DNA of 64,000 bases from Verrucomicrobiota bacterium (GTDB taxonomy: Bacteria; Verrucomicrobiota; Verrucomicrobiia; Methylacidiphilales; UBA1321): assembly GCA_013285645.1 (NCBI GenBank), contig JABDHJ010000009.1, positions 1-64,000 of the forward strand, read 5' to 3'. Every line of letters starts with the position of its first letter. Positions within the stretch are counted from its first letter, which is position 1. The notes under the pieces were generated by a model. That model was not told where the DNA came from. It did not search any database and worked only from the letters and a program-made list of their open reading frames with translations. The position numbers were made by a program, and so were the translations under genes. Positions 20,571-44,400 of this stretch are shown here, piece after piece.

Positions 20571-20582
20571 TGCTTCGAAGCA
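20571..20582. promoter_or_regulatory. Candidate operator, perfect module 1 palindrome
   Basis: TGCTTCGAAGCA is a perfect 12-base palindrome in the 249-base region between the divergent orphan cassette A gene (start 20459) and the Gfo/Idh gene (start 20709). It matches 8209-8220 and 8074-8085 with one mismatch each. Nothing else notable is seen in 20460-20708. Confidence 0.45.
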
Positions 20583-26281: not shown

Positions 26282-26301
26282 GTGTTCATATGTTTTATAT
26301 G
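26282..26301 (-). promoter_or_regulatory. Candidate module 2 operator before the GH-A-like gene
   Basis: Read on the minus strand this is CATATAAAACATATGAACAC, matching the exact 20-base repeat of 32298-32317 at 16 of 20 positions. It keeps the internal direct repeat (CATATAAA, then CATATGAA, 9 bases apart). It ends 18 bases before the preferred ATG 26320. Confidence 0.4.
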
Positions 26302-26319
26302 TATTTGGAGCAACTTTCA

Positions 26320-29300
26320 ATGATTACCTTCTTTTTCTTCAAACGCACCTGCAATGCATTGTTTGGGAAGGAGTTTAATATCCTAATCCTGGCCGGTACA
26401 TTATGCGGATGCGCTCTGACGTCCGCTTTGTCTCAAACAAATTCTACTGCTGTGGTGGTGCCCCCTCCGCCGCCGGATGCGCCCGGAACCGCGAGCTTAA
26501 CGATAGGATGGTTGAAGGTGACGGGGGTGGATCAGGTTTTCCCGGTTGGTCAGACTGCGGTGAGCGTTACTTACAAATCGAACGGTACGGAAGCCACGGC
26601 TTCAATCCCGGTGGAGGCGGATACTTACCTGTGGAAGGATTCGGCCACGCCCATGGGAGAGGGGAAGGGGCTCCTTCTGCGCGACGACCGTTTTTCCGAA
26701 GCGCTGATCAAACTCGATTTGAGTGATATTCCCAAAGACGCACAGATCGAGAAAGCTTCGCTGCAATTCAAAGTCGGGGGAGTGGAGCGCAAGGGGGAGT
26801 CTGGTACTTTCAGCTGTTTCCTCGTCAAGACGCCTTGGGCGGAGGACGCAACCTGGGTGAAATCGCAAGCCGACGGAGAGAATTGGAATGGGCTGGCGTT
26901 GGGCAAGAATTTCGATCCGACTCCGTTCGCGACGCTGTCTGTTCCAATCCTGGACGATAAGCAAAAAGGCGGACAGATCATCGAGATTTCAGATTTCGAA
27001 ACGGTGCTCCAGAAATGGCTGAGCGGGGCTGCTCAGAATAATGGATTTTTACTCACCTTTAGTGGCAAAGCCGTGCAAGTGAACCTTCCCGCCCGCGAGG
27101 CGATGGATGTGACCCGGACGATCACCCTGGGAGGCGCAAAGAATGGAAAGATGTTGCTGACTCCCAACCTGCCACTATTTGATCGGGTCCTACTCAAGCC
27201 GGACGATCTGTTAGGTGCCCACTTGACGGTCTCCATCGCGAAAATGCCCAAGGCCATTCAAAGCTCTGCGGCTGAAATCAAAATTTATCAGGTTGAAGAA
27301 GGAGTTTCGGCTCCGGGGGAATTGGTGGGAAGTATTCCCGTCAAAAGTTTGCCTTTGACCGGTATAGTCGATCTTTTGGATCTGGCTCCGGCATTGAAAA
27401 AAAATCTGGCTGGAGCGCACGATACGAAGCAGGGATTTCTCCTGACAGTGGAGGGCGGTGAGGGGACGCAACCGGAAATCCAGATTTTCGGCGCGCAGGA
27501 TCGCAAGCAGGCCCCCGCGATCAATTTGGTGGTGCATGATTATCCCGCCGCCTATCTATATGGCGATGTGCCGGTCCGTCCTCAACCCGGGGTCTTCACC
27601 AAGGTGGTCGATGGACATCTTACCTACGCGGGAAAACGTCTGCGATTATGGGGAGTAGTCGGATTTCCCCATGTGGATCGGTTGATCAAAATGGGTTTCA
27701 ATGCGCAACGGGTATGGGAACCATCAGCCAGGGTTGAGGATGTGCCGGGTAAAGGAACCTATACGACGGAAAGCGCTAAAAAGGGCGAGTTCGTGCCTTA
27801 CCAAAAAGGAGACGGCTCCCGCTTCGATATTGACGACAAATATTTCGCTGACCTCAAGGCGCATAACTTTTTTGTGATGTGGGGTGCGCTGGCGGGAACG
27901 ATCCCCTATGCGCCTTTACTCGCGGACGATTCCTTTGTGGCGGGAGGAGATGACTGGGCGCAATGGAAAGAAGCGATGCAGATGAAAGGTGCCGGGGATC
28001 CCTTCCATTATTTGTTTGTCGATGAGCGACTACAAAAAATCAGAAAAGCACACGCCAAGGCCCTTCTGACCCATGTGAACCAATACACGGGGAAGACCTA
28101 CGCCGAAGAAGAAAATATCGCGATCTATGAGATATCCAATGAAAACGGATTTGTCACAAAAGTCCTGAGCGGTGAATTGCCTAAGTGGCCACCTTACTTC
28201 AAAAACAAACTGCAGAAAAAGTGGAACCAGTGGCTTTCCGATCATTATAAAGATGATGTCGATTTGAAGAAAGCGTGGGGCTCGCTCAAGGACGGAGAGT
28301 CATTGGCTGGGAGCACTGTCGCGCCTGCTCCAGATTTCGATGATCGCACGAATTATCCGGAACAAAGGGGCAACGATTTTGTCGATTTCATGATCGACCT
28401 GGATAATCAATGGAATCAGGACTTTCGCACCTATTGCCGTTCCTTCGCCCCTGCGGGAGTCGGTATCAACGTCGTACCTTTTTCTTTCGATACCTTCTAT
28501 CGACCCAGTCTGCAGTGGGCCTATGGACAGCACTTGGGAGATGTCCATTTGCAAGGGATGTACTTTTGGGATTTGAAATCGACGCTGGACAAACCGCCGT
28601 CGGCTTATGTGATCGATAGCTATACGCCTTCGGATCAGCCCACCGTCCTTTACGAAACCAATACGGCACGTCCTAACCCATTCCGGGCGGAATATCCTCT
28701 TAAACTGGCGGCACTCGCTTCCTATCAGGATTGGGACGGCGTTTTCTGGCATTACTGGGCACCGATGGAAAATGAGCACGACGTCGCTTATCTGGCAAAT
28801 GCCATGGCGCTTCCGGGGCCAGTCTATTATTGGACCGCCGTCATGCATGAAGTTGATCCGGTGATGTGCACCGCGATGGCCTTGGGTGGCCGTATTTTTC
28901 TCGGCAACCGAATTCCGCCGGCGAAGGATCCCGAAATCTTTAAGATTGGAAAACAGGCGTTGTTCTCCTACTCAGCATTTCGCGGCATCAATATGGCGGA
29001 TTCGACTTTCACCAAGGGAAGCAGACTTTTATACGAGCCCAAAGACGACAGTGCCGTGACCTTGAACGGCAAAACCGTTCCTTCCGCGGGTCGAATTGAG
29101 AAAGCCATTGCCTCCGGGGATTACATCACCTGGGACTGGCCGAACGGACGACTGATCATTGATGCGCCTACAGTGAAGGCCTACGTGGGAAAAGTTGACG
29201 GGTCGTTTCAATTTTCCGATGGTATCACCATCGGAAATATCAGCACGCCCTGGATTGTTTTTTCCATGTCGAGCGCAGATGACAAGCCTCTTACCGGGCC

Positions 29301-30156
29301 TGACGCGACCAAACACATTCTAATGGGCGGTGTGTTTGACGCCAAAAATTCCGGCTTCGAATTCGATTATAATATTCTGGGAGGTCCACTCGATCAGGGG
29401 AAAAGTATTCGTAATCCCGGACATGCGCCTACCCTGGTCGACAAAGTGGAGTACAAGGTGTGGTTTCCCAATCAATTCGAGGGGACCTTGAAAAGTTATG
29501 ATTTTGCCCTTCGTGAAACAAACTCCACGTCCGTCAACAAAGACAACGAGGTGAGTCAACAGGGAGCGACTCCCTACATGGATGTGCTGGAGATTAATCG
29601 ATGGGGTGACAAGGGGGCGTTGCCGGTGGCTTCCCCAACCGTTATTGCCAAACAGGATTATACCCGCAGCAGTCAACCTTTGGATACTATGGTTTCAAAC
29701 GATGCCTCTGTCCCACCGGGAGCGATCTACCCCATTGCAGGAATGGATTGGAGCATGCCATATCCCGTGTCTCAGCACTATCTGGAGAATTCACCGCTTC
29801 TTTTTACCAGCGTCTCCAGGCTGGATACTTCGGCGACCACGGATAAAACCATAACCGTGACCGGTGCGCAATTGCCGTCACTATGGAATAGTCTGGCTGA
29901 CATCGTGCTGACTTTTTCGAGCAATAAGATGACGAAGGTTGAAGTCACGTTCAAACAGCCTCCGCCCGTGAGCGACGTGGAAACAAAATTCACCGCCATC
30001 CTCGGACAACCGGTCGAAAAGAAGCTGGAAGCGCAATACGGAACCACGGAACTTCACTGGATGAGCAAGGGAGAATTGCCAGACGTCTTCGTGACCGAGA
30101 GTCAGGGTATCATGAAGATTATCTATCAGCCTCCCGCCTCGCAAAAAGCGCCTTAA
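26320..30156 (+). CDS. Large secreted clan-GH-A-like glycoside hydrolase with DNRLRE-type domain
   Basis: This is a 1278-residue protein from ATG 26320, preferred over 26290 because GGAG lies at 26307-26310 and the upstream start falls inside the candidate operator. A hydrophobic export signal lies at about residues 18-38. A DNRLRE-type beta-sandwich follows (about 75-250; D-T-Y-L-W-K, then A-L-I-K-L-D-L-S-D-I-P). A TIM-barrel-like region (about 430-840) comes next, with I-Y-E-I-S-N-E-N-G-F carrying the likely acid/base Glu608 and V-L-Y-E-T-N-T-A-R-P-N-P-F carrying the likely nucleophile Glu779. C-terminal beta domains end the protein. The paralogue at 47243-50413 has the same two Glu 172 residues apart, against 171 here. 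GH-A members cleave beta-linked glycans. I cannot name the GH family. Confidence 0.75.
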   Translation: MITFFFFKRTCNALFGKEFNILILAGTLCGCALTSALSQTNSTAVVVPPPPPDAPGTASLTIGWLKVTGVDQVFPVGQTAVSVTYKSNGTEATASIPVEADTYLWKDSATPMGEGKGLLLRDDRFSEALIKLDLSDIPKDAQIEKASLQFKVGGVERKGESGTFSCFLVKTPWAEDATWVKSQADGENWNGLALGKNFDPTPFATLSVPILDDKQKGGQIIEISDFETVLQKWLSGAAQNNGFLLTFSGKAVQVNLPAREAMDVTRTITLGGAKNGKMLLTPNLPLFDRVLLKPDDLLGAHLTVSIAKMPKAIQSSAAEIKIYQVEEGVSAPGELVGSIPVKSLPLTGIVDLLDLAPALKKNLAGAHDTKQGFLLTVEGGEGTQPEIQIFGAQDRKQAPAINLVVHDYPAAYLYGDVPVRPQPGVFTKVVDGHLTYAGKRLRLWGVVGFPHVDRLIKMGFNAQRVWEPSARVEDVPGKGTYTTESAKKGEFVPYQKGDGSRFDIDDKYFADLKAHNFFVMWGALAGTIPYAPLLADDSFVAGGDDWAQWKEAMQMKGAGDPFHYLFVDERLQKIRKAHAKALLTHVNQYTGKTYAEEENIAIYEISNENGFVTKVLSGELPKWPPYFKNKLQKKWNQWLSDHYKDDVDLKKAWGSLKDGESLAGSTVAPAPDFDDRTNYPEQRGNDFVDFMIDLDNQWNQDFRTYCRSFAPAGVGINVVPFSFDTFYRPSLQWAYGQHLGDVHLQGMYFWDLKSTLDKPPSAYVIDSYTPSDQPTVLYETNTARPNPFRAEYPLKLAALASYQDWDGVFWHYWAPMENEHDVAYLANAMALPGPVYYWTAVMHEVDPVMCTAMALGGRIFLGNRIPPAKDPEIFKIGKQALFSYSAFRGINMADSTFTKGSRLLYEPKDDSAVTLNGKTVPSAGRIEKAIASGDYITWDWPNGRLIIDAPTVKAYVGKVDGSFQFSDGITIGNISTPWIVFSMSSADDKPLTGPDATKHILMGGVFDAKNSGFEFDYNILGGPLDQGKSIRNPGHAPTLVDKVEYKVWFPNQFEGTLKSYDFALRETNSTSVNKDNEVSQQGATPYMDVLEINRWGDKGALPVASPTVIAKQDYTRSSQPLDTMVSNDASVPPGAIYPIAGMDWSMPYPVSQHYLENSPLLFTSVSRLDTSATTDKTITVTGAQLPSLWNSLADIVLTFSSNKMTKVEVTFKQPPPVSDVETKFTAILGQPVEKKLEAQYGTTELHWMSKGELPDVFVTESQGIMKIIYQPPASQKAP

Positions 30157-32198
30157 TGCGAAGGAGTCGTCTGCACAGAATCCCGATTTTTGTCTACGGT
30201 CCCGTCATCGTGGCTGTCGACTCGCTCCACTTTCAGGCGGCGGAAAAACAAGAAGAGGTCCTTCCAGCAACCGATGGTAAACCAAATCGTGGTGCCTATC
30301 GAAATTGCGAGCGGAAGGTAGATGGCCGTGACGAGCCAGTAATCGGCCCAGGCGCTGTCCGACCACGGGTGAATGAGATACCACGTGCTGCCTATCGCGC
30401 AGACGCCGAACCAAAAGAGGCTCCAATAGAAAATGCCGAGGGTGACCCACCGGTCGCCGCGCGTAAAATGTTCATCGATCCCGACGAGGTTGTAGACATG
30501 GAACCGACTCCTGGCGGGCTTTGTTACGATGGGTTCATTCGAGGCCTCTGGCTCGACCGCGTATTTGCCCCGGTGGAGCAGGCGATCCATGTTGTGAGGT
30601 GTGCGACAGGTCAAAAGAGAAGCGAGAATGTAACCAGCCAGAGCCGTTAGCGTGGCGAAAAAGCCGATCACCGTTCCGTTGAGAGGCAGGTTGGGGCCAA
30701 GATGATTCAACATGGATTGGACCCAGGGAACGGAGGACATTCCCAGTCGGTCGGTTACGCCTTGGAAAAAGCTGACGCATCCCGGTTGCCGGAGAAGAAT
30801 ACCGCCGGTTGAGAGCGTCGATCCCAAGATCAACCCGGTCCATGCGCCGGCGGTAGTGCCGTGGCTCCAGTAAAGACCGCCAATGATTGCCGCTCCCGCG
30901 CCGCCGACGAAAATTGCCATGGTGACGTTGAACCACATCGGAAGATATTCGGTTTGGGTAAAGAGCGCGCCAAAGAAAAAGGCGAATAAAGCCACGCCGA
31001 TAATGGAGGCGCGCAAAAGGATGATATGCGCACGCACGCTGAGCGGACGTTTGCAAAGGGGAAGGACCACGTCCTGGGCGAAAATGCTTCCCCACGAATG
31101 AAGATGCTGGCCGTCCCCACCTAAAATTCCCATGAGAACCACCGACACCAAAAGTCCCTTGATCCCAATCGGAAGAATCTCGGAAAGTCCGATGGGCAGC
31201 CGCATCTGTTCGCTCGTTTGCGGATCTGCGATCTGGGCGAGTCGTTGTTGAACCACGGCCTGGCCTTCGGGCTGATGGAGGTAAGTCATCGCGGAAACCG
31301 CGAGGAGGAGCATGGTCGTGCCGAGTGCAAAGCCACGCCATTTACCCAAAATATAACCCATGCGCGATTCATGAGGAGAAGCCGCCGCCGAGTTGAAGCC
31401 TTGGTTGTTTTGCCAGGCCATCGTTCCGTAAACACTTCCAAAGATTCCGATCAACACGTACCCGAGATTAAAATCCTTGGTGCTGAAACTCTCGAACGGA
31501 TTGACGGCCGAATGGCCCGGAGGATTGGAAAGAAGCATGGCGCGGGTCTGCGGCCAGCTGAAGATGAAGATCAAAAACAAACCGATGATCACGTAGAAGA
31601 TCTGTGAAATCATGCCTTGGATACAGTCGGCCATCATCACCGTGATCTGGCCGCCGGTGATGGTAATAAGCGTGGTGATCGTCAGGAAACCGCCCATCAG
31701 TACGAGGTAGGTGGGGACCGTGAACGAAAAGAGATCGATCGTTTGCGGAAGGTCCAAAAAATGGACCATGAATTTGCCGCCGATGACCGGGATGACACCG
31801 AAATTGAGAACGCCCGCGATAAACCCGAGAATACCGGTGGCAAGTCGAAAACTTCGTGTGTAACGCATCTCGAAAAACTGCGCCAGTGTTAGCGCGCGAG
31901 TCTGTCGATATCGGTAAATCACGAAACCTGTAATGGCCATGATCAAGCCGACAGGGCTCGCGATTTGTCCCCACCAAGTCACCGGAAAACCACCGTGGCT
32001 GAACCACTCGAACATCGCGACATAGCCAATGGCCCCGGCGCCCATTTCGCTGCGAGCGGTGGAAAGAAGATACCGTCCAGCCAGACGGCCCCCGGACATG
32101 AAATCGGCGACGCTCTTGAGGTAACGATTGGCGTAAATCGTCACAGCCGCGACGATAACAACCGGGAGGACAACGAACAGCCAGTCAATCAGGTGCAT
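30153..32198 (-). CDS. SSS-family sodium/solute symporter 2
   Basis: This is a 681-residue integral membrane protein, a clear paralogue of the symporter at 21819-23804. Both have S-V-A-D-F-(L/M)-S-G-G-R-L-A-G-R-Y-L-L, a T-R-A-x-T-L-A-Q-F-F-E-(I/M)-R-Y block, G-T-M-A-W-Q, a G-D-x-x-H-L-H-S-W-G-S-I-F block and N-M-D-R-(M/L)-L-H-R-G-K-Y-A. About 14-15 helices are visible. A longer loop around residue 490 is particular to this copy. It converges on the GH-A-like gene with shared stop-codon bases, and its upstream region (32199-32387) carries one exact copy of the 20-base repeat. Control by AraR-like regulator 2 is inferred. The substrate is unknown. Confidence 0.93.
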   Translation of the reverse strand: MHLIDWLFVVLPVVIVAAVTIYANRYLKSVADFMSGGRLAGRYLLSTARSEMGAGAIGYVAMFEWFSHGGFPVTWWGQIASPVGLIMAITGFVIYRYRQTRALTLAQFFEMRYTRSFRLATGILGFIAGVLNFGVIPVIGGKFMVHFLDLPQTIDLFSFTVPTYLVLMGGFLTITTLITITGGQITVMMADCIQGMISQIFYVIIGLFLIFIFSWPQTRAMLLSNPPGHSAVNPFESFSTKDFNLGYVLIGIFGSVYGTMAWQNNQGFNSAAASPHESRMGYILGKWRGFALGTTMLLLAVSAMTYLHQPEGQAVVQQRLAQIADPQTSEQMRLPIGLSEILPIGIKGLLVSVVLMGILGGDGQHLHSWGSIFAQDVVLPLCKRPLSVRAHIILLRASIIGVALFAFFFGALFTQTEYLPMWFNVTMAIFVGGAGAAIIGGLYWSHGTTAGAWTGLILGSTLSTGGILLRQPGCVSFFQGVTDRLGMSSVPWVQSMLNHLGPNLPLNGTVIGFFATLTALAGYILASLLTCRTPHNMDRLLHRGKYAVEPEASNEPIVTKPARSRFHVYNLVGIDEHFTRGDRWVTLGIFYWSLFWFGVCAIGSTWYLIHPWSDSAWADYWLVTAIYLPLAISIGTTIWFTIGCWKDLFLFFRRLKVERVDSHDDGTVDKNRDSVQTTPSH

Positions 32199-32297
32199 GG
32201 ACTGGTCTCAGGTAGGCTTTCGAAGCATCGCTCATCTACTGTTCCCATAATGCCAGTTGTTGGCGAAGATTGGTTTTTCGCGATAAGCTAAGGTCTA

Positions 32298-32317
32298 CAT
32301 ATAAAAAATATAAATTC
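32298..32317 (+). promoter_or_regulatory. Candidate module 2 operator, exact copy 1
   Basis: CATATAAAAAATATAAATTC recurs exactly, inverted, at 33663-33682 on the other side of the regulator gene. The match stops at 20 bases on both sides. It contains a direct repeat of ATATAAA with 9-base spacing. It lies 100 bases before the symporter start codon. Confidence 0.6.
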
Positions 32318-32387
32318 TAGCTTTTTCTCGATCGGTTTGGCACGACGGGAGAAATAATCGAATCGGGAAGAGATATTCCCTTTTGGC

Positions 32388-33545
32388 CTAACCTTCCAGG
32401 TTATTGGCCAGCGCAAACTTGGAAATCAAATCACGGCTGCTTCCCTTGATGAACTCGTGGTGAATTTCATAGTAATGCGGTTCGAGTCCGGCAAAGCGAT
32501 CTTTGATTTGCTGGATAAGCGCGTCGGCGATGTCCTTTTCCCGGGTAATAATCCAATCCGCAGGAAGGGGGCAGAGAAATTCAACGTGCTGGTTTTTGTG
32601 CAAAACGAGCTTTAATTCAGATGGGACTTTCACTCCTCTTTCCAATACGGCGATTACCACGCCGTGCGAAACATTTTCCGGATAAACGATCAACCCATCG
32701 GGCTTTTCCTTCAGGTCCCACAATTTGTGGAATTCCTGGTAACCAAATTTCTCCTGGGAGTCTTGATGGGATTTGGGAATCCTGATCCAGGACTTCTGGG
32801 TCTTCATGTTAAATGCTTTCAATTGGGCATTGAAGGCATTGGGGATGGTATCGTTTTCGTTTTTTCCCCAGTCCGGTTTGGACAATGGAGTGGGATGGAT
32901 TAATCCCACGGTCCGGCATCCCTGATTGCTAAGCGTCTGGCACGCCATGGTCATGATCTGGTTAAAATCAATGCATATCCTGCTATAATCCGAGCGCGCT
33001 GAACTGAAAAAGGAAGTCGGAAGGGGCATTTTGCTTAGCCATTCCTCCTTGGGATAGCCAATCAAGGGTACAATCAGCCCGTGTATCGCGTGAGAATTGA
33101 CCGACTCCAAAAGCTCCACGAGCGGCTCCTCCTGCAGTGCCGGTGGTCGGCTGTCGATAAAGACCTTGGCGGAGATGTTTTCCTTTTGTAAAGAATTCAA
33201 AAGTTGTCCGTGCAGGGAGCGATAAAAGGCCCGCTCATGCTTGATCAGGATTTCATCGCCATAGTAGATGCCGACGCTGCCCAACTGCTTGTTTTGTTTG
33301 CGGACGAAAGTTCCCAAGCGGGGTTTTCGTTCTAATAGCCCTTCGCGAACCAGTCGGGTAAGAGCGGTATGGACGGTGAAATAATTCGTGTTCCATTGCG
33401 CGGCAAGATCATGCATGCGCGACAATTTGGATCCGGCCGGGAGTTTGCCGCTGGAAATCAATGACCGGAAATGATTGGTGATTTGTCGATGAAGAGCTTC
33501 GCCTTTCTGAACTTTGAAAGGAGGGATGTCTGCAGACTCTGACAT
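32388..33545 (-). CDS. AraR-like transcription regulator 2 (GntR-type HTH plus LacI-type sensor)
   Basis: The 385-residue regulator starts at ATG 33545. A longer reading from 33617 adds 24 unlike residues. Residues about 14-80 form a GntR winged helix-turn-helix: A-L-H-R-Q-I-T-N-H-F-R-S-L-I, then K-L-S-R-M-H-D-L-A-A-Q-W-N-T-N-Y-F-T-V-H-T-A-L and L-E-R-K-P-R-L-G-T-F-V. A LacI-type sensor domain follows (S-V-G-I-Y-Y-G, D-F-N-Q-I-M-T-M-A-C-Q-T-L-S-N-Q-G-C-R-T-V-G-L-I, and P-D-G-L-I-V near residue 285). It is only distantly like regulator 1. Its gene is flanked on both sides by the same 20-base sequence, which suggests autoregulation and control of both neighbours. Confidence 0.87.
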   Translation of the reverse strand: MSESADIPPFKVQKGEALHRQITNHFRSLISSGKLPAGSKLSRMHDLAAQWNTNYFTVHTALTRLVREGLLERKPRLGTFVRKQNKQLGSVGIYYGDEILIKHERAFYRSLHGQLLNSLQKENISAKVFIDSRPPALQEEPLVELLESVNSHAIHGLIVPLIGYPKEEWLSKMPLPTSFFSSARSDYSRICIDFNQIMTMACQTLSNQGCRTVGLIHPTPLSKPDWGKNENDTIPNAFNAQLKAFNMKTQKSWIRIPKSHQDSQEKFGYQEFHKLWDLKEKPDGLIVYPENVSHGVVIAVLERGVKVPSELKLVLHKNQHVEFLCPLPADWIITREKDIADALIQQIKDRFAGLEPHYYEIHHEFIKGSSRDLISKFALANNLEG

Positions 33546-33662
33546 GGCACCACTATGGGATGGCAGATAATCACTGCAATCAGATTTATCGAAGATTCTC
33601 CTCCCCGCTACGGGCAATCGTGAACAAGTCCACTTTAGTGTCGTGGTCGCAGGAAAGAGATT

Positions 33663-33682
33663 GAATTTATATTTTTTATATG
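33663..33682 (-). promoter_or_regulatory. Candidate module 2 operator, exact copy 2
   Basis: On the minus strand this is the same 20 bases as 32298-32317 without any mismatch. It sits in the 250-base divergent region, 118 bases before the regulator gene and 114 bases before the gene at 33796. Read as a palindrome, GAATTTATAT and ATATGCATTC pair at 8 of 10 positions around five T. Confidence 0.6.
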
Positions 33683-33795
33683 CATTCTCGTTTTCGCGAA
33701 ATGAAAACCGTTAAGACGTACTTCCAGACTGCCGCTCGCTCTCTGGTGCCCCTTTTTCAAATCAATGACAAGCCGTCCTGGAGCATGCAATTTCC

Positions 33796-35538
33796 ATGAC
33801 CGCGTTGCCCTCCACTTACACCCTCACCGATTCTCAGCGCCTGCGTCTTCGCCGCGCATTGGAGCGCGAGGATCATTCCTACAATCCTGCCGAACGGATG
33901 TTGCGCGTCCCCTTCAGTTCTCCCGGTTATCACACCACGTTGAAAGGCGGTTGGGTCCATCCAACTCGTGAATCGTTTGTCTATGCCGTTGCGTTGCTCG
34001 ATTCCGGGGAGAAGGGTGAGAAAGAAAAAGCGCTCGGTATCCTGGACCGCCTTCTCGCCCTTCAGGATATCAACTCCTCGAGTTCGACTTACGGAATCTG
34101 GTCGTGGTTTATGGATGAACCGCTCGAGCAAATGGCGCCGCCCGACTGGAACTGGGCCGATTTCTGCGGTGCGCAATTGCTTGAGATCGCACTGACTCAC
34201 GGGCCTTATCTTCCCTTGGAAATGCAGGAGCGAATCAAGAGCGCTATCCTCCATGCGGCACGTTCGATTGAACGGCGCAATGTCGATCCCGGTTATACCA
34301 ATATCGCAATCATGGGGAGTTTCGTTTCTCTCACTGCTGCCGAGACCTACGATGTCCCGGATCTCCACACCTTCGCCATGGCCAAGCTGCGCCGTTTTCA
34401 CGCCTACACCCGCGAGCAGGGAGGCTTCACCGAATACAATAGCCCGACGTATACCCTGGTCGCGCTCGATGAATTGGTCCGCCTCCTCCGCTTTGCTCGC
34501 GATCCGGAAGCGCGTGTAATGGTTGAAGAACTCTATCATACGGCATGGAAGGAATTCGCCACCCACTTCCACGCCCCAACCATGCAATGGGCCGGTCCCC
34601 AGAGTCGTGCTTACAAAAATCTGCTGCCGCCGAGGGTCTATGGATTTCTTCATCGCGCCACCGACGGACGCTTTCCTGCCGACGATGTTGAGCCGGAACT
34701 AAACGAGCATCGCCTCGTTCACATCTGCCCGCCCGATCTGGAGCCGCTTTTCTTCTCCCTGGAATCCCCTCGCGAAGTTCGCCAGACCTTCATTCGTGCG
34801 GCAAATGACCGTCCGGATATTATTGGCACCACCTATCTTGCCCCTGCATTCACTTTGGGCAGCGTCAACGTTGGCAGCATGTGGAACCAGACACGCACGC
34901 TCCTCGCTTATTGGGGAACCGAGGAGAAGCCTTCCTCTCTTCGAACCCTATTTCTCCACGATGGCTACGATTTCGCCGCCGCCCACCTTTTGAGTATTCA
35001 GCGCGAGGGAGATATTCTCGCCGGAATCGGTTTCGCGGTCGACGGATACGACTCGCATCCTTTCTTTGACAAGATCAAGGATGGCACGATCCGGGCGCGC
35101 GATATGCGACTTCGTTTCGAGGTCGAGGGACCTGCCGCCGTCGGGCTCCCTCCGGCACCTGCGGAATTGCACGCTCCCTGGACATTCCACGATGGCGATT
35201 TCCACGTCGCTGTTACCGTCCCTCATGCCGCATGGGACGAGTTTGAAGGGCGTTGGGAACGGGGCGACGGTGAAGGAAAGGCCTGGCTCGATCTCGTTCT
35301 CTACGCGGGATCGGAACGGCAATTCTCCCTCGCGGAGATGGCTGATGCGTCGTGCGCTTTCGCTGTCCGCTGCTCGACTGGTTACGCGAAGCCGCCTGCT
35401 CCGGACGTCATGCGCAAAGACGGGCAACTGTTACTGACGTGGGACGGTTTGGAGATCGCGTGCGCTTCTGTGCCGCTTCCGACTGCAACGTTGATGAGCT
35501 CATTTTCCTCGGCAGCTAAAGAACCCTGCTGCAAATAG
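33796..35538 (+). CDS. Uncharacterised 580-aa protein, likely (alpha/alpha) toroid
   Basis: This is a 580-residue protein without signal peptide or membrane helices. Residues about 1-300 are helical and rich in aromatic residues (Y-G-I-W-S-W-F-M-D-E-P, P-P-D-W-N-W-A-D-F-C-G-A-Q-L-L-E-I-A, and G-G-F-T-E-Y-N-S-P-T-Y-T-L-V-A-L-D-E-L). The Y-N-S-P-T-Y block and helix pattern resemble the toroid half of heparinase/alginate-lyase-like proteins. The C-terminal 250 residues are beta-rich, as in the sandwich half of that fold. No H-x-H-N-D motif like that at 12680-15706 is present. It is divergent from AraR-like regulator 2 and likely under its control. The fold call is by pattern; no reaction can be given. 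Confidence 0.6.
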   Translation: MTALPSTYTLTDSQRLRLRRALEREDHSYNPAERMLRVPFSSPGYHTTLKGGWVHPTRESFVYAVALLDSGEKGEKEKALGILDRLLALQDINSSSSTYGIWSWFMDEPLEQMAPPDWNWADFCGAQLLEIALTHGPYLPLEMQERIKSAILHAARSIERRNVDPGYTNIAIMGSFVSLTAAETYDVPDLHTFAMAKLRRFHAYTREQGGFTEYNSPTYTLVALDELVRLLRFARDPEARVMVEELYHTAWKEFATHFHAPTMQWAGPQSRAYKNLLPPRVYGFLHRATDGRFPADDVEPELNEHRLVHICPPDLEPLFFSLESPREVRQTFIRAANDRPDIIGTTYLAPAFTLGSVNVGSMWNQTRTLLAYWGTEEKPSSLRTLFLHDGYDFAAAHLLSIQREGDILAGIGFAVDGYDSHPFFDKIKDGTIRARDMRLRFEVEGPAAVGLPPAPAELHAPWTFHDGDFHVAVTVPHAAWDEFEGRWERGDGEGKAWLDLVLYAGSERQFSLAEMADASCAFAVRCSTGYAKPPAPDVMRKDGQLLLTWDGLEIACASVPLPTATLMSSFSSAAKEPCCK

Positions 35539-35558
35539 CAGGCCTTGAGGAGATACAT

Positions 35559-35642
35559 CAGCCTGTAGCGGCGGTCTACGACCACCGATCTTCCATCACG
35601 CTCCGTGCATCATTGACAGTCATAGACCGCCGCTACAGGCTG
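35559..35642. repeat. REP-like inverted repeat (24-base arms)
   Basis: The left arm 35559-35582 and right arm 35619-35642 are reverse complements with one mismatch, separated by 36 bases. The arms begin CAGCCTGTAGCGGCGGTCTA. The element sits between two convergent genes, 20 bases after one stop and 19 before the other. This fits a REP/BIME-type element and could also act as a two-way terminator. No other copy was noticed in the window. Confidence 0.75.
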
Positions 35643-35661
35643 CAGGTCTAAGACGCCGGAA

Positions 35662-38600
35662 CTATTCGTTATAAAGTTCCAACTGTTCGTCGACAACCTG
35701 TCCTGTGACGCGGTCGATGGTCACATGCAACCAGTAGCGGCGTTCTCCTTCGACAATAAACTTGCTCAGGTCGCCGGGATTCGCGGTGGCCGCATTCGGG
35801 GGATAGTGGCCCACCTGGGCAACGACATCGATCAACAGATTCCAGGTGCGCGTTGTTCCTAGTTCGCCCAAGGCACGGACCACGGCTTCTCTGCGAGGTT
35901 TGATGGTCGCATCCGTGGTGGGCGAGAAATAGTTGATATAAGGTGTAGTTTGCCGGACAAGGTCCGCGCGGTTGATATACGAATTGGTCGATGTGAACGT
36001 TGTGATGGCGCTGGCGATATTGCTGCTTTCCGAGCTGGAAAGCGTCGAGAGGGGAGTCGACCCTATTTGCTCCGTTTTATAGGCGCCTTGAATTGCCGCC
36101 TGGATCGTGACCGGTTGGCGGGTATTGAGATTGATCTTTCCCGCCACCAGCGGAGCCGGATCATTGCCAAATATATCAAGTAATCCCATGTCGGCACTAT
36201 TGGTGCTGAAAAAGTTAATCGATTTCCAAGGGGCTTGACCCCGGAAAGCGAATCCCATTTCTCCGACGCTGCGGAAAGGGCGATTCAAAATGATAGGGCG
36301 CGCAGCAAAGCTGGTCGCGTTGGTGGCCAGATAGGGATTCGCGTTCGCTCCCAAATAACCGTCTCCGGGACGAAAAATTCCATCAGCGTCGGATTGATAG
36401 GTATTCGTTGTCCAGCCTGCGGCGCTGGCGAAAACATTGTTGCTGGCATTCTCATTAAACATGCCCTCGTAGGCATGGTAAGGGGTCCAGGTGTTTCCTC
36501 CGCCGGTGGAATAGGGGTATGAATAGCCTTCAGGATAGTTGCCATTGCGACCACGAACGACCCCGGCAGTCTTGGTGTCGGGGCGCACACTCATATTGGG
36601 AGAGGCCTGCTCAAAACTCATTCCCCATAGATAAGCTCGTGGATCCCCGAAGCCAGCCGACTGAACATAGTAATTAAAATTTTGGAAGCACGTTACAGCT
36701 CCTGAGACCGTGGGACCGTAGGGTGTCGCACCCGAATGGTCGCTATAACCCATTGCTCCCTGGGCGGTGCTGAAACTTATCGGTGTAATTTGCGAGCTTA
36801 CGGTGGTATTCCCCGCATAGCCCTGATAGGGATGCCAATTGCCGCTCGAATCTTGAAATTGGACCTGAAAGCCTATGTCTCCGGTACCCGAGGAAACCAA
36901 ACCTGAGTTTAGATATTCATAATCGGTGGCCGTGTTTGTATGCATGCTGGTGACAATCCGGGAATCGGGAAGGTTGGTGGCATAGCCGGCCAGGAAGCCT
37001 GAGATCGAATTGCCACTCTCCGTAAAATTCGTCCAATAATTGACCGCTCCACTTGAACTGGTGTTTCCCATGCCGTTGGTCAGGATGGAGGGCTCGCTGA
37101 AAGCGGTAGAGTTGGTAAAGGTTGCTCCGGGCTTGTTGGCATCGGCCGTACTATTGGGGAAATTGAAAGTAGCCGGGAAGGCATAGGTATTTGTTGGAGC
37201 GGTTCCGAGACTGACGTAGGGCGAAACGTTGTTGGTGTGACTTCCGGTGCTGCTAACTCCTTGCATGCTCCAATAATTGGTTACACCGTTATTGGTCGAG
37301 CCGACTGCCTCCATCAATACCCGTAAATTCGACGGGCCGGAGCCGGATGACGGAAGAGTGGATGAATTTTGATAGGGATTCCAAAATTCAACCGGGCAAA
37401 CCATCATGATATCGCTGCGATTGGTATCGCCTGCGGAATCGGTCAGCGGACGATAGGTCCATTGAAGGAATTCGTTGAGATAGGGGAGGCTCTTGTTGCC
37501 GGCATACGTCTCATGGTTGAAATTGATCACCGTGGGCCAGTTGTCGCTGGTGTATTGATCGATGATATTGGCCCCCATCTGCATGGTGACCTCGGACACA
37601 TAGGTGCCGGTGGCGCTGGCGGTCCAAGGGGTGACGAGAGGCGGCAGACTTCCCTGCAAGATTCCGGCCTGGAGCAATTCAAAAAAATTGGGGCTGCGCG
37701 GTGGCGAGAGGGTTGCGACTTGATAGAGCTGCGCGATCGCGGTCGTTGATGGCGTATAGTTCCAGCTATAACCATCAGGAGCATGCACCAATCCAAAATA
37801 ATTGCTGATCGCCGCCGCGTTGTTGACGGGATCGGCGAAAAGTGCCAGGCGGCTGAGCGGAAAACGTTGGGAGACGAGAGGCAAGCCATTGGCTTGGCGC
37901 ACCAGAGGGATATTGGGATTGAAGGTGTTGGTTGCGCTCGTATAGCCATTTAACGGAGGCAAGATGCCAGAATTACCACCAGCTGCGGGAGCTGCCAGGA
38001 TGGTCTTGAGTGCTTTCATTGCGGGCATATTGGTGCCCAACTGCGCGCCATACGGGAAAAAACTGGGGGCATTCACATCCCGGCTATAAGTCGTGACGTA
38101 AGGCAGAATATTTGTCAGCCCGTTGTCCTGGGCGTAAGCGATCAAATCCTGACGGCTTAAGAATGCGTTGTCGCCCGGCGCGACGTAAACGTAGTTGTTC
38201 GTTCTGCCGAAGCTGTTGGTCCCTTGCAATACCGTGCCAATGGGGCCATTGGTCGTGGTTAGGTTCGTGGAATATAAATAGTTTGTGTAGCTATTCGCAG
38301 TCGCTTCGGAGCCAGCATTACGCCAGGCGATCAGTGCCTGAATCTGGGGTGTGGTCAGTCCGGGGATTGCCGTTAAATCCATCATGCCGGGAGTTCCCTT
38401 GCGGGCCAGATCGGTGGCCGAGATGGAGGAACCATCTCCAAATGTTGCGGGATATCCCGCCAGGTTGATATTGATGAGACCGCCTTCATCATAAACCGCA
38501 TAGGCAAAGCGACCGATCGCGTAGTTATTCTGATCGGACACATTGGCAAAGTACGGAAGTTGCGTCGTGGCATTCGTCATCGAAGTGGGACCGGACCGGG

Positions 38601-39144
38601 TGACCATGATCCAGTAGGGATCTCCACTGTCATCGGTAGGAAATGTGCCGATGCAGGGTTCGCTCCACCGGGCGGCATCCACGTAGCGCCCGTTAAGCGA
38701 CGGAACCGAAGTGCGAATACTCGATGGCAGTACCCCGCCATTGGGAAAGGCCCCTCCCGGTATATAGGCACTGGTGCCGCTCATGCTGATTTTGAGCAGG
38801 CTGACCATATTCGCATTGGTGCCCACCGGTTCCGGCATGATGTTGGTGGAGGCAAGGTTGACGTAAATGGGATAGCCCCCGGTGATATCGGGAGGCGTTC
38901 CTGAATCCATCTCCTCCTGGAGTTCCTTCACCACCCACCATGCGCCTCCCTGGGCCATTTGATCGGCCTTGAAGGACTGCCCGTAACTGAGGCTCGCCGC
39001 GCGATGCAATTGCATCGTCACGACAAACGCGATCACCGTCACGCTGAGGACGGCAATCATCAGCAGGACCGTCACCAAAGCCATGCTGCGTCTATCGCGG
39101 CAATACTCGGTGGACTTTTTGCCGTGTCTAGGGAAGGGGGACAT
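35662..39144 (-). CDS. Verru_Chthon cassette protein A (GspK/PilX-like), complete cassette
   Basis: The 1160-residue protein starts at ATG 39144. A reading from 39345 adds 67 residues that are a shadow of the C gene. The leader M-S-P-F-P-R-H-G-K-K ends in a basic stretch, followed by a helix with S-M-A-L-V-T-V-L-L-M-I-A-V. There is no Glu5, as in GspK. It carries all the conserved blocks listed for the stand-alone copy, for example V-Y-D-E-G-G-L-I-N-I-N, G-A-N-I-I-D-Q-Y-T-S-D-N, K-I-N-L-N-T-R-Q-P, and a closing Y-W-L-H-V-T-I-D-R-V-T-G. The K-I-N-L-N-T block parallels the 'I-N-x-N-T-A' of GspK. It is much larger than GspK because of Asn/Thr-rich inserts. It overlaps the C gene by 17 bases. Confidence 0.9.
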   Translation of the reverse strand: MSPFPRHGKKSTEYCRDRRSMALVTVLLMIAVLSVTVIAFVVTMQLHRAASLSYGQSFKADQMAQGGAWWVVKELQEEMDSGTPPDITGGYPIYVNLASTNIMPEPVGTNANMVSLLKISMSGTSAYIPGGAFPNGGVLPSSIRTSVPSLNGRYVDAARWSEPCIGTFPTDDSGDPYWIMVTRSGPTSMTNATTQLPYFANVSDQNNYAIGRFAYAVYDEGGLININLAGYPATFGDGSSISATDLARKGTPGMMDLTAIPGLTTPQIQALIAWRNAGSEATANSYTNYLYSTNLTTTNGPIGTVLQGTNSFGRTNNYVYVAPGDNAFLSRQDLIAYAQDNGLTNILPYVTTYSRDVNAPSFFPYGAQLGTNMPAMKALKTILAAPAAGGNSGILPPLNGYTSATNTFNPNIPLVRQANGLPLVSQRFPLSRLALFADPVNNAAAISNYFGLVHAPDGYSWNYTPSTTAIAQLYQVATLSPPRSPNFFELLQAGILQGSLPPLVTPWTASATGTYVSEVTMQMGANIIDQYTSDNWPTVINFNHETYAGNKSLPYLNEFLQWTYRPLTDSAGDTNRSDIMMVCPVEFWNPYQNSSTLPSSGSGPSNLRVLMEAVGSTNNGVTNYWSMQGVSSTGSHTNNVSPYVSLGTAPTNTYAFPATFNFPNSTADANKPGATFTNSTAFSEPSILTNGMGNTSSSGAVNYWTNFTESGNSISGFLAGYATNLPDSRIVTSMHTNTATDYEYLNSGLVSSGTGDIGFQVQFQDSSGNWHPYQGYAGNTTVSSQITPISFSTAQGAMGYSDHSGATPYGPTVSGAVTCFQNFNYYVQSAGFGDPRAYLWGMSFEQASPNMSVRPDTKTAGVVRGRNGNYPEGYSYPYSTGGGNTWTPYHAYEGMFNENASNNVFASAAGWTTNTYQSDADGIFRPGDGYLGANANPYLATNATSFAARPIILNRPFRSVGEMGFAFRGQAPWKSINFFSTNSADMGLLDIFGNDPAPLVAGKINLNTRQPVTIQAAIQGAYKTEQIGSTPLSTLSSSESSNIASAITTFTSTNSYINRADLVRQTTPYINYFSPTTDATIKPRREAVVRALGELGTTRTWNLLIDVVAQVGHYPPNAATANPGDLSKFIVEGERRYWLHVTIDRVTGQVVDEQLELYNE

Positions 39145-39907
39145 ATCGTTCGAAAAATTGGACGCCGTGTTTGATATTGCCGGGATAATTGGCGTAATTA
39201 ATGGGATTGGCCGCGCCCGTCGTATGACTGAAGTTGGCCTGCCAGATTTGATAAGGGCTCTGGCCGGAAGCAACGGTAAAAGCGGGATCGGCGCTGAGAG
39301 TGGCGAGCTTGCCGCTCGACACCAGGACGGAGAGGGTCGCGTCATCGACGATGGCCAGGTCGATTCCCACCGCCAGGTCGCCTGTTGCGTAATTGGTGGA
39401 GGTAGTGCCAGTCGGAGTCACAAAAGTGAGTTGCATCTTCAACACGCCATTGACCATGTTCAGGAAATTGGTCGCGGCGGGAATGGTCGTCTGGGTAAAC
39501 GGAATCGTGGCCACGGTATTGGCCGCCCTTTGCAGAACGGAATTGGTCGTGCTCGATTCGATTTGATAGCAAATGAGTGAGCGCGGAGAATCTCCCACCG
39601 TGCTGCTGCTTTGACGAAGCGTATAGAAGGTATTGGAGCCGTTCACAAACGCGGGGACATCGGGCCGGAAGATCCCCAATTGATAATCGAGCGTCATGAT
39701 GTCGAGCGAACTCCGGGCTTTGGTGAAATTATTGATCGTGCTTTTACCCATGAGCCACGTGGAATTGATCGTGATGAAAAAACTCGAAAGTATGGCCAAA
39801 AGAAGAGTTAAAACCGCCATCGAGACCAGAAGTTCGACCAGGCTAAAACTGGCGACCGGTCGACCTCGTGAAACTCTACGGCAACGGAATGCAGGTAAAG
39901 ACTTCAT
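39128..39907 (-). CDS. Verru_Chthon cassette protein C (GspJ/PilW-like pseudopilin)
   Basis: This is a 259-residue protein with a basic leader (C-R-R-V-S-R-G-R-P) and a type IV prepilin helix S-F-S-L-V-E-L-L-V-S-M-A-V-L-T-L-L-L-A-I-L, Glu5 included. The usual Gly before the cut site is replaced by Ser. After the helix come N-S-T-W and K-A-R-S-S-L-D-I-M-T-L-D-Y-Q-L, a pattern seen in GspJ/PilW ('x-x-x-x-R-x-x-L-x-x-L-x-x-D-L'). The soluble part is a beta-rich domain. The start overlaps the B gene stop by 32 bases, so B, C and A are tightly coupled. Confidence 0.88.
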   Translation of the reverse strand: MKSLPAFRCRRVSRGRPVASFSLVELLVSMAVLTLLLAILSSFFITINSTWLMGKSTINNFTKARSSLDIMTLDYQLGIFRPDVPAFVNGSNTFYTLRQSSSTVGDSPRSLICYQIESSTTNSVLQRAANTVATIPFTQTTIPAATNFLNMVNGVLKMQLTFVTPTGTTSTNYATGDLAVGIDLAIVDDATLSVLVSSGKLATLSADPAFTVASGQSPYQIWQANFSHTTGAANPINYANYPGNIKHGVQFFERYVPLP

Positions 39908-40325
39908 AGCGACCTTTCACTTCACTGGGATTGATCGTGGGGTCAATGGAGGGAGGCCACGACAGGCAAAAATAGAGCGAGGCGGTTTTGTTGGCATTTG
40001 AGGTGACCTTATAAGCCAGGCGATACACAGGGAGGTTCGTTTGCGATGAGGAAAGCATGGTGCAGTCTGCTGCGACATAAACGCTGCTTGGATTCATCGT
40101 ATTCGTTAAAGGAAGGATCGGAAAGGTCGAGCTGATCGTGTTGGTTGGCGCCGCGCGGCGTTCTGAAATAAGGAGAGAAGCCATGGTTGCGGCCTGGACT
40201 GTTTCCGACGAATCGTAGCCGGCTTGCGCCCCCACAGACAGGAGGCCTAAAAGCGCAAATAAGCAGAAGGAAACGACGGCAATCGCGATGACCACTTCCA
40301 CCAGTGAGAAGGCCCTGCGCTTCAT
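39876..40325 (-). CDS. Verru_Chthon cassette protein B (GspI/PilV-like pseudopilin)
   Basis: The 149-residue protein from ATG 40325 starts M-K-R-R-A-F-S-L-V-E-V-V-I-A-I-A-V-V-S-F, a standard short basic prepilin leader and helix with Glu5. The cut-site Gly is replaced by Ala. A reading from 40364 adds 13 residues and overlaps the D stop by 4 bases. Translation may begin there, but the shorter form fits prepilin leaders better. The helix continues to L-L-S-V-G-A-Q-A-G, then E-T-V-Q-A-A-T-M-A-S-L-L, as in PilV/GspI proteins. The soluble domain of about 100 residues ends in the tail T-C-I-P-L-P, very like the tail V-P-L-P of protein C. Confidence 0.87.
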   Translation of the reverse strand: MKRRAFSLVEVVIAIAVVSFCLFALLGLLSVGAQAGYDSSETVQAATMASLLISERRAAPTNTISSTFPILPLTNTMNPSSVYVAADCTMLSSSQTNLPVYRLAYKVTSNANKTASLYFCLSWPPSIDPTINPSEVKGRYEVFTCIPLP

Positions 40326-40360
40326 GACAACGGCGAGGGGAGCCACCGCGCGCCTCCTCA

Positions 40361-41095
40361 TCACGGTTGGTAGACTTGGGCCTCGCCCGTAAAACCATTG
40401 ACCCGGATGACTGCATACATCGTGCTGGACTGCGCGGTGCCGTGAAACTGGCAGAGATCGAGTTCAACGGCCTGGGTCGTCGCCGCCTGCACTTTGGCCT
40501 CTCCAGATGGAGTAAATTCGATGCTTTGGGTGAAGGTCTGACTGCCAATCCCGGGGACATTGATCATAAAGGAAGGCGTCGACAATGCCATGCTCGAAAC
40601 TTGGCTGACCGCAGGCACATTGGAAAGAGAATAGGTGCCGCTATTGTAGAGGCCTATCTGGGGGAAGGAGGCCACTTTATCCAGAAGCTGATATTTGGTC
40701 GGATCAGTCGCGTTGGTGGACCACGTCGTCGTCGATCCCAGAGAGCCGCCACCGGTCAGGATTTGCGCCGTGCCGTCCACCGAAGCCACGAGCGCAACAT
40801 AGACCGTTGACGGCTGGGTTGGCGTCGCCGCACTGGTATAAAACGTGGCCCACGTGTAGGTGTTGTTGGCCACGGCGTACTGCCGCGCCCTCTCGAGCAT
40901 GTCTGCGATCGTTGAGCTTTGCGTACTGAAGTTACGCGCTCCTGTCACAGAAAACCCCGAAATCGCCACACTGGTGAGGATTCCTATAATGGTGATGACA
41001 GTCAGCAGCTCGATCAGGGTGAACCCCTGCCGGTTTCTTCTTAGGGACTGATCAGTCGGGCAGTTCGTCGGATGGTAGAATTCGGGCGAGCGCAT
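40361..41095 (-). CDS. Verru_Chthon cassette protein D (GspH/FimT-like pseudopilin)
   Basis: This is a 244-residue protein with leader N-R-Q-G and prepilin helix F-T-L-I-E-L-L-T-V-I-T-I-I-G-I-L. It has the proper Gly-Phe cut site and Glu5, so it should be processed by a PilD-type peptidase. After the helix, T-I-A-D-M-L-E-R-A-R-Q-Y-A-V-A-N-N-T matches the GspH/FimT pattern ('L-x-x-A-R-x-x-A-x-x-x-x-x'). It is the first gene of the minus-strand D-B-C-A run. It is divergent from PEP-CTERM giant 2 across 309 bases. The order D-B-C-A equals H-I-J-K in type II secretion operons. Confidence 0.88.
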   Translation of the reverse strand: MRSPEFYHPTNCPTDQSLRRNRQGFTLIELLTVITIIGILTSVAISGFSVTGARNFSTQSSTIADMLERARQYAVANNTYTWATFYTSAATPTQPSTVYVALVASVDGTAQILTGGGSLGSTTTWSTNATDPTKYQLLDKVASFPQIGLYNSGTYSLSNVPAVSQVSSMALSTPSFMINVPGIGSQTFTQSIEFTPSGEAKVQAATTQAVELDLCQFHGTAQSSTMYAVIRVNGFTGEAQVYQP

Positions 41096-41404
41096 ACAAA
41101 AACCTTGTCGTTACGATAAAACATATATATCAATGCCGTCAAATGCTTTTATCGCCCTGCGGTCAAATAAGTGTGATTTGAAGAAATACCCATGCGAATC
41201 AGAGGCAAACGGAGAAAAGAAAAAGAAATATTTTCAATCGATTCGTTGACGGCAAGTAGCTTCACGGCCCCATACATTATTTTATTGCAATCTTAGGGGC
41301 ATAAGATATAAAAGATATAAATGGCGATTCCATCTATCGCCATCTTGCCGGAAATAGTGATCTACCTTCTTTAAATCTAAGCTGAAAAATTGGAATTAAA
41401 AACC
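41096..41404. other. Divergent intergenic region before the cassette and PEP-CTERM giant 2
   Basis: This is a 309-base, very A+T-rich stretch without a convincing small gene. It contains a 16/20 copy of the module 2 repeat (41305-41324, listed separately) and a weaker A+T-rich match (about 13/20) at 41113-41132, close to the start of the D gene. Shared control of the cassette and PEP-CTERM giant 2 is possible. Confidence 0.6.
41305..41324 (+). promoter_or_regulatory. Candidate module 2 operator before PEP-CTERM giant 2
   Basis: GATATAAAAGATATAAATGG matches the exact 20-base repeat at 16 of 20 positions. It shows the direct repeat most clearly (GATATAAA twice, 9 bases apart). It ends 80 bases before the preferred ATG 41405. 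Confidence 0.45.
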
Positions 41405-44400
41405 ATGAATCCTCCCCGCTCAACGGTCGGTGCGTCCAACCTGGCAAAATTTTTTGGTTTCAAGCGACGGGCTCTTCTCCTTGCCGCTTCCCTCGCGCTC
41501 TTCGCGGGGCAGTCCGCACAGGCGGCGACCACCACCCAGACATGGACTGGCGCCGTTAATGGTACTTGGCAAACACCTGGAAATTGGTCGGGCTCTCCAA
41601 CACCGATTATTCCTGCAGGCACCGTTATCCTGGAATTCAATACACCATACACCAACGCTCCCACAACAAATGGGGCTACTGCTGGGGGAGGAGCGATCTG
41701 GGTGACGAGTGGAATTGGCCAGAACGTTGTGATTGGTGGAACAGGAACTCTTACACTTGCGGGTAACTTGACTGTAAACGGAAATGCCCTCGAGGGGATT
41801 TTACTCGATGACTCTGGAAATGATAATCTAACCATCAACGCCCCACTAGCCCTCACCAATACTAGCACCTTTACCGTCAATAACGCGGGTACCTTGACGC
41901 TTCAGGGGGGCACATTCGCCATCACTGCCGGTAAGACTTTGACATTCAACGGGTCCAATTCCTCAGGCAATATCATTATCAATAGTGCAATGACTGGCAC
42001 GACCGCTGCCATCGTCGTTAATACGGCTGGCACCGTGACGCTCGGGGGCGCCAACTTGAATACGGGGGGGACGACTCTCACCTCCGGTACGCTGGTGCTA
42101 AGCAGTGGGGCCACTTTGGGCGCTTCAGGTGGATTACTGGCGGTTAATGGCGGTGTACTTAATCTCAACGGAACCAGCCAAAACGTCGCCTCTCTCTCCA
42201 GCACAGCTACTGGAACGTCCGGCTTCATTCTCAATAATGGATCCGGTATCTCAACGCTGACCATGAGCGGTACTAACTCTACCAGCTATGTTGGCTCAAT
42301 CATTGATAATAATAACGCAGGTTCGGGCAAGGTCGCTCTGGTTTATGCCGGCACCGGCACCCTGACTCTTGCTGGTACCAATACCGATAGCTACAGCGGC
42401 GGCTTTAGCCTCAATTCCGGCACGGTGATTCTGAACAACGGAACCGCGACGGGTACCGGCCTGCTGACTATTGGCAGTGGAGCGACTATCAGTACTTCCC
42501 TTGCCGGAGGCGTCACCCTGGCTAACAGTGCGCAAGTCTGGAATGGCAGCTTCACTTCCAATATCGCGTCCACGAGTCCTACGAGCTCCTTGAATCTAGG
42601 TTCTGGGAATGTCTCCATGAGCGGCCCGCTCACCATTACGGTGAACGGTACTGCCACTCTGAGTGTGGGCGGTAACATCACAGACTCCACCAATCCCAGT
42701 AATCTCTATAATGCCTCTCTCGATATCACCAAGTCGGGTACGGGTACGTTGGCGTTGGGGGAAAACGTGACTTTGCCGACGACGGTAGTCCAGTCAAACG
42801 TCTCGGCGGGAACCTTGGCCTACGCCGGTAATATCACCTTGGGGGGCACGGCCAATACCATTACCTCGATTACGAATACCGGCTCCGGTACATTGGCTTT
42901 CACGGGCGCAATTGACGCTGGTACGACGAACCACGGCATTGCCATCAATGGCGGCACGGTGCTGATTTCCAACAGCAACAATAGTTACCAAGGTGGCACC
43001 ACCTTGAATTCCGGTGTCTTGGAAACGGGCACCAACGGCCTCAATAACAATGGCGGTACAATCACTTTGAATGGCGGGGAATTTAGTGCGATCGGCTCCA
43101 CAGCCTTTAGTGTGATTGGTGTTACCGTGTCGAATGGAGCCAGCGTTGCCTTTGGCGATACCACGAACACGGGATCGATTACACTTATTACGCCCGCGCT
43201 GGGCACAGGATCAACCTTGAGTTCCAACGTCGGTTTAACTTTCAGCGGAGCAGCAACACTCGATAACTCTACCGGCACAATCACATTCGCGCCCGCGAGC
43301 GGCAAAACGATAGCCCTGAACGGGATCACTGAGGGCTCAGTCAGTGGCAATCACAGCATTGTGATCAATGGTCCTGGAACCGTCTATACGGGTGCTACGA
43401 CCGCTACCTACAATTACGCTGGTTCAACGACCGTCGAAGGCGGAGCCACGCTTCATATTGGGACCCCAGCGCCCCTGCCTTCGACTAGCATGATCATTAT
43501 CAACGGTGTCGGTACGTTGCAACCGGACAATGGCGGCGGCACCGCGACCGTGACCAACAATATCACCGTCAATGCCAATAGCACCCTTAACACCCAGAAT
43601 TCCAGTTCAGGCGGCGACGGTTATACAGGTAGCCTCACCCTCGGTGCAAATTCGGTCGTTAACGTAACCACCGGCTCATCGAAAGGGCCCACCTTTTCCG
43701 GCACCATTACGCTGGGTGGTAACGTCACGTTCTCGGATTCTTCCTTGGCCAATGGTGTTGGCGGCACCCAGGCGCCCTTGAAGTTCTCGGGGCCGATCGG
43801 CGATGGGGGGAACAATTTTGGAATCACTATTGTCGGGACTGAAAGCAACCTCAATTTTGTCAACCTTACAGGCACTAATACGTTTACGGGTGGCGTGAAT
43901 ATCGCCAGTGGCGAACTTGTTTTGGGAAGCACCACAGCCTTGAACAGCACGACCCCCAATATCGTTACCATCAGTGGTTCGAACACCGTAGGTGGTTCGC
44001 TTGACATCCATGGCTTCAATACGGCTGTTGCGGGCCTGAATGGTGCCAGTGGAACCTTCAACGGCATTGTCACGAACGGCGGCACCATTGCCGCCTTAAC
44101 GATCAAAAACTCGACTGCGCAAACGTATAATGGCGTCATTACCAATGGCACCAACGCCTTAAGCCTGGTCGAAAACGGCTCTGCCAATCAGACCCTGACA
44201 GGCGCCAATAGTTACACCGGCGGTACAACCATTACTTCAGGTACGCTCACAGTGACCGGTGGCGCTGGCGTCGCATCCAGTCAGGGCTCGGTAACCGGCA
44301 CCACCACCACCACGATCACGGGGCTTACTTCTACTGGCACTCTAGTGGTTGGCGAGAGCGTCTCGGGTACCGGTGTTGCGGCCGGATCTTACATTACCTC

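Follow-up and report, generated by a model that had tools for sequence, protein, structure and literature searches.

AraR of B. subtilis, a GntR-family protein of the AraR subfamily, combines a GntR winged helix with a LacI/periplasmic-binding-type sensor and acts on several operators over sugar genes, its own gene included (PMC4218819). The operator boxes bound by AraR are palindromic, At(T/A)tGTaCGTAcaa(A/T)T, and are read through Arg-G contacts. Arg41 touches an operator G and Arg45 is located on the same recognition helix (PMC4218819). Arg-G contacts are common in the GntR family, and departures from its NyGT-ACNy palindrome are described for NanR, NagQ and FarR, which use direct repeats, as well as for BioR with TTATMKATAA (PMC4494728). 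These proteins belong to the FadR or HutC subfamily and their sites have other sequences, whereas regulator 2, the protein considered here, has the AraR architecture with a LacI-type sensor.

The locus of regulator 2 lies in a window of 64,000 nucleotides (positions 1 to 64,000 of contig JABDHJ010000009.1, assembly GCA_013285645.1) from a member of the Methylacidiphilales family UBA1321, which comprises heterotrophs of peat, bog and forest soil with some plant-polysaccharide capacity (PMC8706344). It resembles the AraR system in domain architecture and in having several putative operators over sugar genes, including the regulator gene itself; it differs from it by a direct repeat with a 9-base lag and by Tyr/His in the recognition helix. 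As in LacI-regulated sugar loci, a private local operator would be found at regulator, transporter and hydrolase genes, but pseudopilin cassettes and PEP-CTERM giants are among the targets in the present case. The cassettes are in turn similar to the Verru_Chthon cassette (TIGR02600), namely, an A-like protein and prepilin-like B, C and D proteins beside a PATR/PEP-CTERM giant, although the A proteins of the window scored far below the curated cut-off or were undetected. A literature search yielded no paper on the Verru_Chthon cassette or explaining the roles of PEP-CTERM giants.

Table 1. Repeat sites, genes and repeat copies (window coordinates unless a contig is given).
Feature	Coordinates	Strand	Description
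Site 1	26282..26301	-	CATATAAAACATATGAACAC; 18 bases upstream of the GH-A-like ATG (26320)
Site 2	32298..32317	+	CATATAAAAAATATAAATTC; 99 bases upstream of the symporter
Site 3	33663..33682	-	Same 20-mer as site 2; between the divergent regulator 2 and 580-aa genes
Site 4	41305..41324	+	GATATAAAAGATATAAATGG; 80 bases upstream of giant 2, 209 upstream of cassette gene D
52-bp element, site 2 copy	32276..32327	-	Reads towards the symporter; ends approximate
Matching element, site 3 copy	33653..33701	+	Reads towards the 580-aa gene; ends approximate
GH-A-like secreted protein	26320..30156	+	NEN and YETN motifs conserved; weak GH5 mannanase and GH42 matches
Symporter	30153..32198	-	Sodium:solute symporter-like, 681 aa; weak SSF match; 62% identity to the L231 symporter
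Regulator 2	32388..33548	-	GntR winged helix and Peripla_BP_3; assumed start ATG 33548, with the frame open since TTG 33617
580-aa protein	33796..35538	+	Predicted helical toroid and beta sandwich, polysaccharide-lyase-like
Cassette gene A	35662..39345	-	Divergent Verru_Chthon-A-like; 30% identity to protein 16485-20459
Cassette gene C	39128..39907	-	Prepilin-like
Cassette gene B	39876..40364	-	Prepilin-like
Cassette gene D	40361..41095	-	Prepilin-like, N-methylation motif
Giant 2	41405..46174	+	PATR repeats and PEP-CTERM tail; PF07589 24.7 bits (cut-off 20.7)
TTATAAGCAAT copies	G000:C1:71403, 71539, 72732; window 8010-8020		The first three in L220; the window copy upstream of giant 1 beside regulator 1
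L123	G000:C2:20001-39900		TGTTAATGTAACA at 3396, 6482, 11308, 16285, 16354
L167	G009:C25:279001-298900		TCTACAATTAG with at most 1 mismatch at 293, 4997, 7166, 13421, 13710

The initial annotation had described sites 2 and 3 as an identical inverted pair around regulator 2 and sites 1 and 4 as weaker copies. Coordinates, orientations and identities (20/20 for the pair, 16/20 for sites 1 and 4) were all reproduced. The same holds for the position upstream of start codons, with distances of 18, 80, 99, 113 and 114 bases to the main targets (from site 3, 113 to the 580-aa gene and 114 to regulator 2), and for the direct repeat with a 9-base step, which was present in all four sites with 7-8 of 8 letters matching. 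The repeat unit is approximately [C/G/A]ATATRAA, in tandem at this step in each site. Both units start with C in site 1 and with G in site 4, which fits the repeat of one half-site. The best palindrome in any site reached 5/8 compared to 7-8/8 for the direct repeat, and the GT-AC core was absent from all four putative sites when these were inspected for an AraR-type palindromic operator. The proposed sites are nearly pure A/T. A fatty-acid desaturase starts 134 bases from site 1, which could also act on this divergent gene, and site 4 could serve either giant 2 or the D-B-C-A cassette, or the two together.

The four-site repeat is not due to chance. A 16-mer, ATATAAAAAATATAAA, was taken from the perfect pair alone, and with up to two mismatches the four sites were its sole matches in the 3.18-Mb assembly (100 contigs, 66% complete). 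The only exact matches of ATATAAAANATATRAA in the assembly were the four sites; there was no hit at one mismatch and there were five at two, and its reversed control gave ten; as ATATAAAANATATRAA was derived from all four sites, the non-circular 16-mer is the better test. In a scan of the window, more than 14/20 was reached at the four sites only, with one extra 14/20 site at 26150. When the intergenic DNA of the window was dinucleotide-shuffled 1000 times, exact repeats between segments reached 16 bases at most and never 20; 14 of the runs contained at least one 16/20 match and no run contained two. In a ranking of all intergenic pairs over 104 kb of contig sequence, the 20-mer pair shared first place with a hairpin that is a probable terminator. 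Chance similarity and A/T-rich background were ruled out by genome-wide scan, intergenic ranking and shuffles. The initial annotation had named many matches of the same quality in unrelated A+T-rich promoters as an outcome that would refute an operator; these were looked for genome-wide and did not appear.

A similarity of 52 bp, which encloses the perfect 20-mer, is common to the symporter and 580-aa promoters (promoter alignment; 0 of 1000 shuffles). Both copies run in the same direction relative to these genes, and the element includes TCGCGAAA downstream of the 20-mer. Sites 1 and 4 share the core only, without this wider similarity, and were individually at 1-6% in pairwise shuffles; their statistical weight comes from the genome-wide test.

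Regulator 2 contains an N-terminal GntR winged helix (PF00392, 45.2 bits; cut-off 27) and a C-terminal LacI/periplasmic-binding-type sensor (PF13377, 36.7 bits; cut-off 26.5), whose profile also matches CcpA and PurR. In an alignment with YvoA via the family profile, Tyr79 and His83 align with the two recognition-helix arginines of AraR, and the nearly G/C-free core of the putative operator is consistent with these residues in place of arginines. Regulator 1 and the regulator of locus L220 keep an arginine (VSQxTVRR) and share the GC-containing motif TTATAAGCAAT; the correlation between helix residues and operator sequence is drawn from very few cases. The name 'AraR-like', under which regulator 2 had been annotated, is appropriate for its domain architecture (PF00392 and PF13377) but not for the arginine contacts, with Tyr79/His83 at these positions, and for the operator symmetry, with a direct repeat. 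The target genes suggest an effector sugar other than L-arabinose.

No close orthologue of regulator 2 was found among the genomes searched, the best protein outside its own genome being 39% identical. At its start codon, this homologue (L043) carries four ATAGT/ACTAT units that follow each other at a step of exactly 9 bases (0 of 2000 shuffles in a lag-9 test designed after sequence inspection). Such lag-9 repeats were not found in the promoters of most other distant homologues of regulator 2, L043 being the only case. No 20-mer-like site was detected near a 59% identical paralogue on contig C59 (L040) that has nearly the same recognition helix. The paralogue (G000:C59:1-8767) adjoins a cassette, and two copies of TATCAWWTCGATATGA are located in intergenic DNA there.

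The products of the presumed target genes were characterised by profile searches and structure models. The AlphaFold model of the 580-aa protein (mean pLDDT 89.8) shows a lyase-type toroid and beta-sandwich fold with glycosaminoglycan lyases (GAGases), alginate lyases and heparinase III as top PDB matches (TM-score ∼0.4), and the protein is thus predicted to have a polysaccharide-lyase fold. For the 1288-aa secreted protein, the NEN and YETN motifs are those expected for a clan GH-A enzyme; its structure model was of low confidence and was set aside. A second GH-A-family protein with 35% identity to it (taken as 26290-30156) is encoded at 47243-50413 of the window, and the GH-A-like family has four members in the genome, some beside divergent cassette A genes. 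The cassette A protein was undetected in a TIGR02600 search (cut-off 332.3 bits), and protein 16485-20459 scored only 36.4 bits, far below this cut-off. The B, C and D proteins that adjoin A were assigned as prepilin-like by N_methyl matches and by similarity to other cassettes, and the PEP-CTERM giant is adjacent as well.

The strongest support for reading the repeat as an operator comes from four other loci of related gene content, L220 and L123 in the same genome as well as L231 and L167. They have the same design with different sequences, i.e. a local GntR- or LacI-type regulator together with a repeat that is private to the locus and located at the promoters of regulator, symporter, hydrolase and giant or cassette genes. 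The LacI type was assigned in three of the four (L231, L123 and L167), from N-terminal sequences and without a family search. L220 on contig C1 combines a D-B-C-A cassette and a giant with genes for a symporter, for a GntR-type regulator and for a protein homologous to the 580-aa protein (35%). TTATAAGCAAT has exactly four matches in the genome, three of which flank the L220 regulator on both sides in opposite orientations, and near matches are located upstream of the L220 cassette; it is a probable operator of a regulator 1-type protein. L231, from a genome of another family of the same order, combines a symporter, a GH-A protein 45% identical to that of the window, a cassette, a giant and a LacI regulator. 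With up to two mismatches, TWATCGAAACGTTTAC has four matches in this genome, all of them in L231, before the GH-A gene, the giant and two other genes, and weaker copies are present upstream of symporter and regulator.

In L123, which also has hydrolase-like genes, TGTTAATGTAACA is located before the LacI regulator and the PEP-CTERM giant, among other positions; one further copy with one mismatch lies outside the locus in the genome. In L167, with a LacI regulator and a Verru_Chthon cassette, the five copies of TCTACAATTAG, counted within the locus, include those before regulator and cassette. The parallel loci came out of a systematic search of cassette loci for repeats. Many of these loci had none, a repeat was also seen in 2 of 20 control loci, and some repeats in other cassette loci are probably unrelated. 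In the window, TGAAAATAAAATAGCGATTG (7979-7998, before giant 1) and TGAAAGTAAAGTAGCTATTG (20553-20572, beside the first A-like gene) match at 17/20 and possibly represent a second element belonging to locus 1.

The four sites are probably operators of regulator 2. The regulon proposed in the initial annotation is supported by the genome-wide exclusivity of these putative operators and by the recurring layout in L220, L231, L123 and L167. A dimer of regulator 2 would bind the two half-sites in 9-base step and, if repression rather than activation is assumed, would repress the GH-A, symporter, lyase-like/regulator and giant/cassette promoters, including that of its own gene. Binding of a sugar, probably a breakdown product of the encoded enzymes, to the sensor domain would lead to derepression. 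The C59 paralogue without a site, the absence of a lag-9 repeat from most distant homologues, the lack of enrichment of such regulators near canonical Verru_Chthon cassettes and the direct repeat, which is unusual for this regulator family, speak against the operator reading. The sites could instead belong to a different regulator, for example to regulator 1 (11582-12670), to the AraC-type protein encoded at 55226-56107 or to a protein outside the assembly. The window does encode other regulators and the genome is just 66% complete, but two perfect copies flank regulator 2, and regulator 1 keeps its helix arginine and has an L220 relative that is paired with TTATAAGCAAT, of which a copy precedes giant 1, so that this explanation seems unlikely.

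An origin of the repeats as A/T-rich promoter or UP-like elements that multiplied locally by duplication would agree with the composition of sites 2 and 3 and their location inside a duplicated-looking 52-bp element. A general promoter element would, however, be expected genome-wide and none was present in the assembly, the wider similarity does not extend to sites 1 and 4, and a sigma-70-like scan remained at background around sites 2 and 3; this origin is considered quite improbable. The perfect inverted copies, approx. 1.4 kb apart and enclosing one gene, also resemble the terminal repeats of a small mobile element with the regulator gene inside. Such an element is hardly credible given that neither a transposase gene between the copies nor an obvious target duplication at their ends was found and that two more copies precede other genes. 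A search against Rfam gave no match.

Judged from the sequences, Verru_Chthon-like pseudopilin cassettes and PEP-CTERM giants appear to be co-regulated with polysaccharide catabolism, which is new. Locus-specific switches in related clusters suggest that surface proteins are switched on together with polysaccharide digestion. Tentatively, and as a possibility somewhat short of probable, the cassettes and PEP-CTERM/PATR giants may serve Methylacidiphilales-type Verrucomicrobiota as a surface machinery that is induced by the substrate and captures polysaccharides. Each copy would be connected to the genes for symporter, lyase and hydrolase through a regulator and a private operator of its own, with regulator class and operator swapped between otherwise homologous loci. 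The private shared operators would place cassettes and giants in sugar-responsive regulons and thereby assign them a concrete, testable function. A regulator of the GntR/LacI type that lacks the usual arginines and has a direct-repeat operator of almost pure A/T would also be useful for studying the change of operator specificity between homologous loci.

Concerning the generality of this arrangement, a GntR/LacI-type regulator was detected near 7 of 40 canonical Verru_Chthon cassettes compared to 3 of 20 control stretches, i.e. without enrichment, using a regulator profile that is weak for LacI proteins, as it missed those of L123 and L167. Among the homologues of regulator 2, five of the ten closest are located near a cassette compared to roughly 5% expected, a rough comparison chosen post hoc. 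For the divergent A subfamily in the same genome, 6 of 11 cassettes have a regulator within 11 kb (rough binomial p 0.0006, likewise chosen post hoc). Other repeats were also observed. TGGGGTGAACACCCCATA represents a near-palindromic, intergenic repeat family at 74.6-91.5 kb of contig C9 (L041, L042), outside the window. Dispersed inverted repeats of the GTCATCCTGAGC type were observed at 61172 of the window, in L041 (C9:69513), L121 and L221, and are probably a REP-like element.
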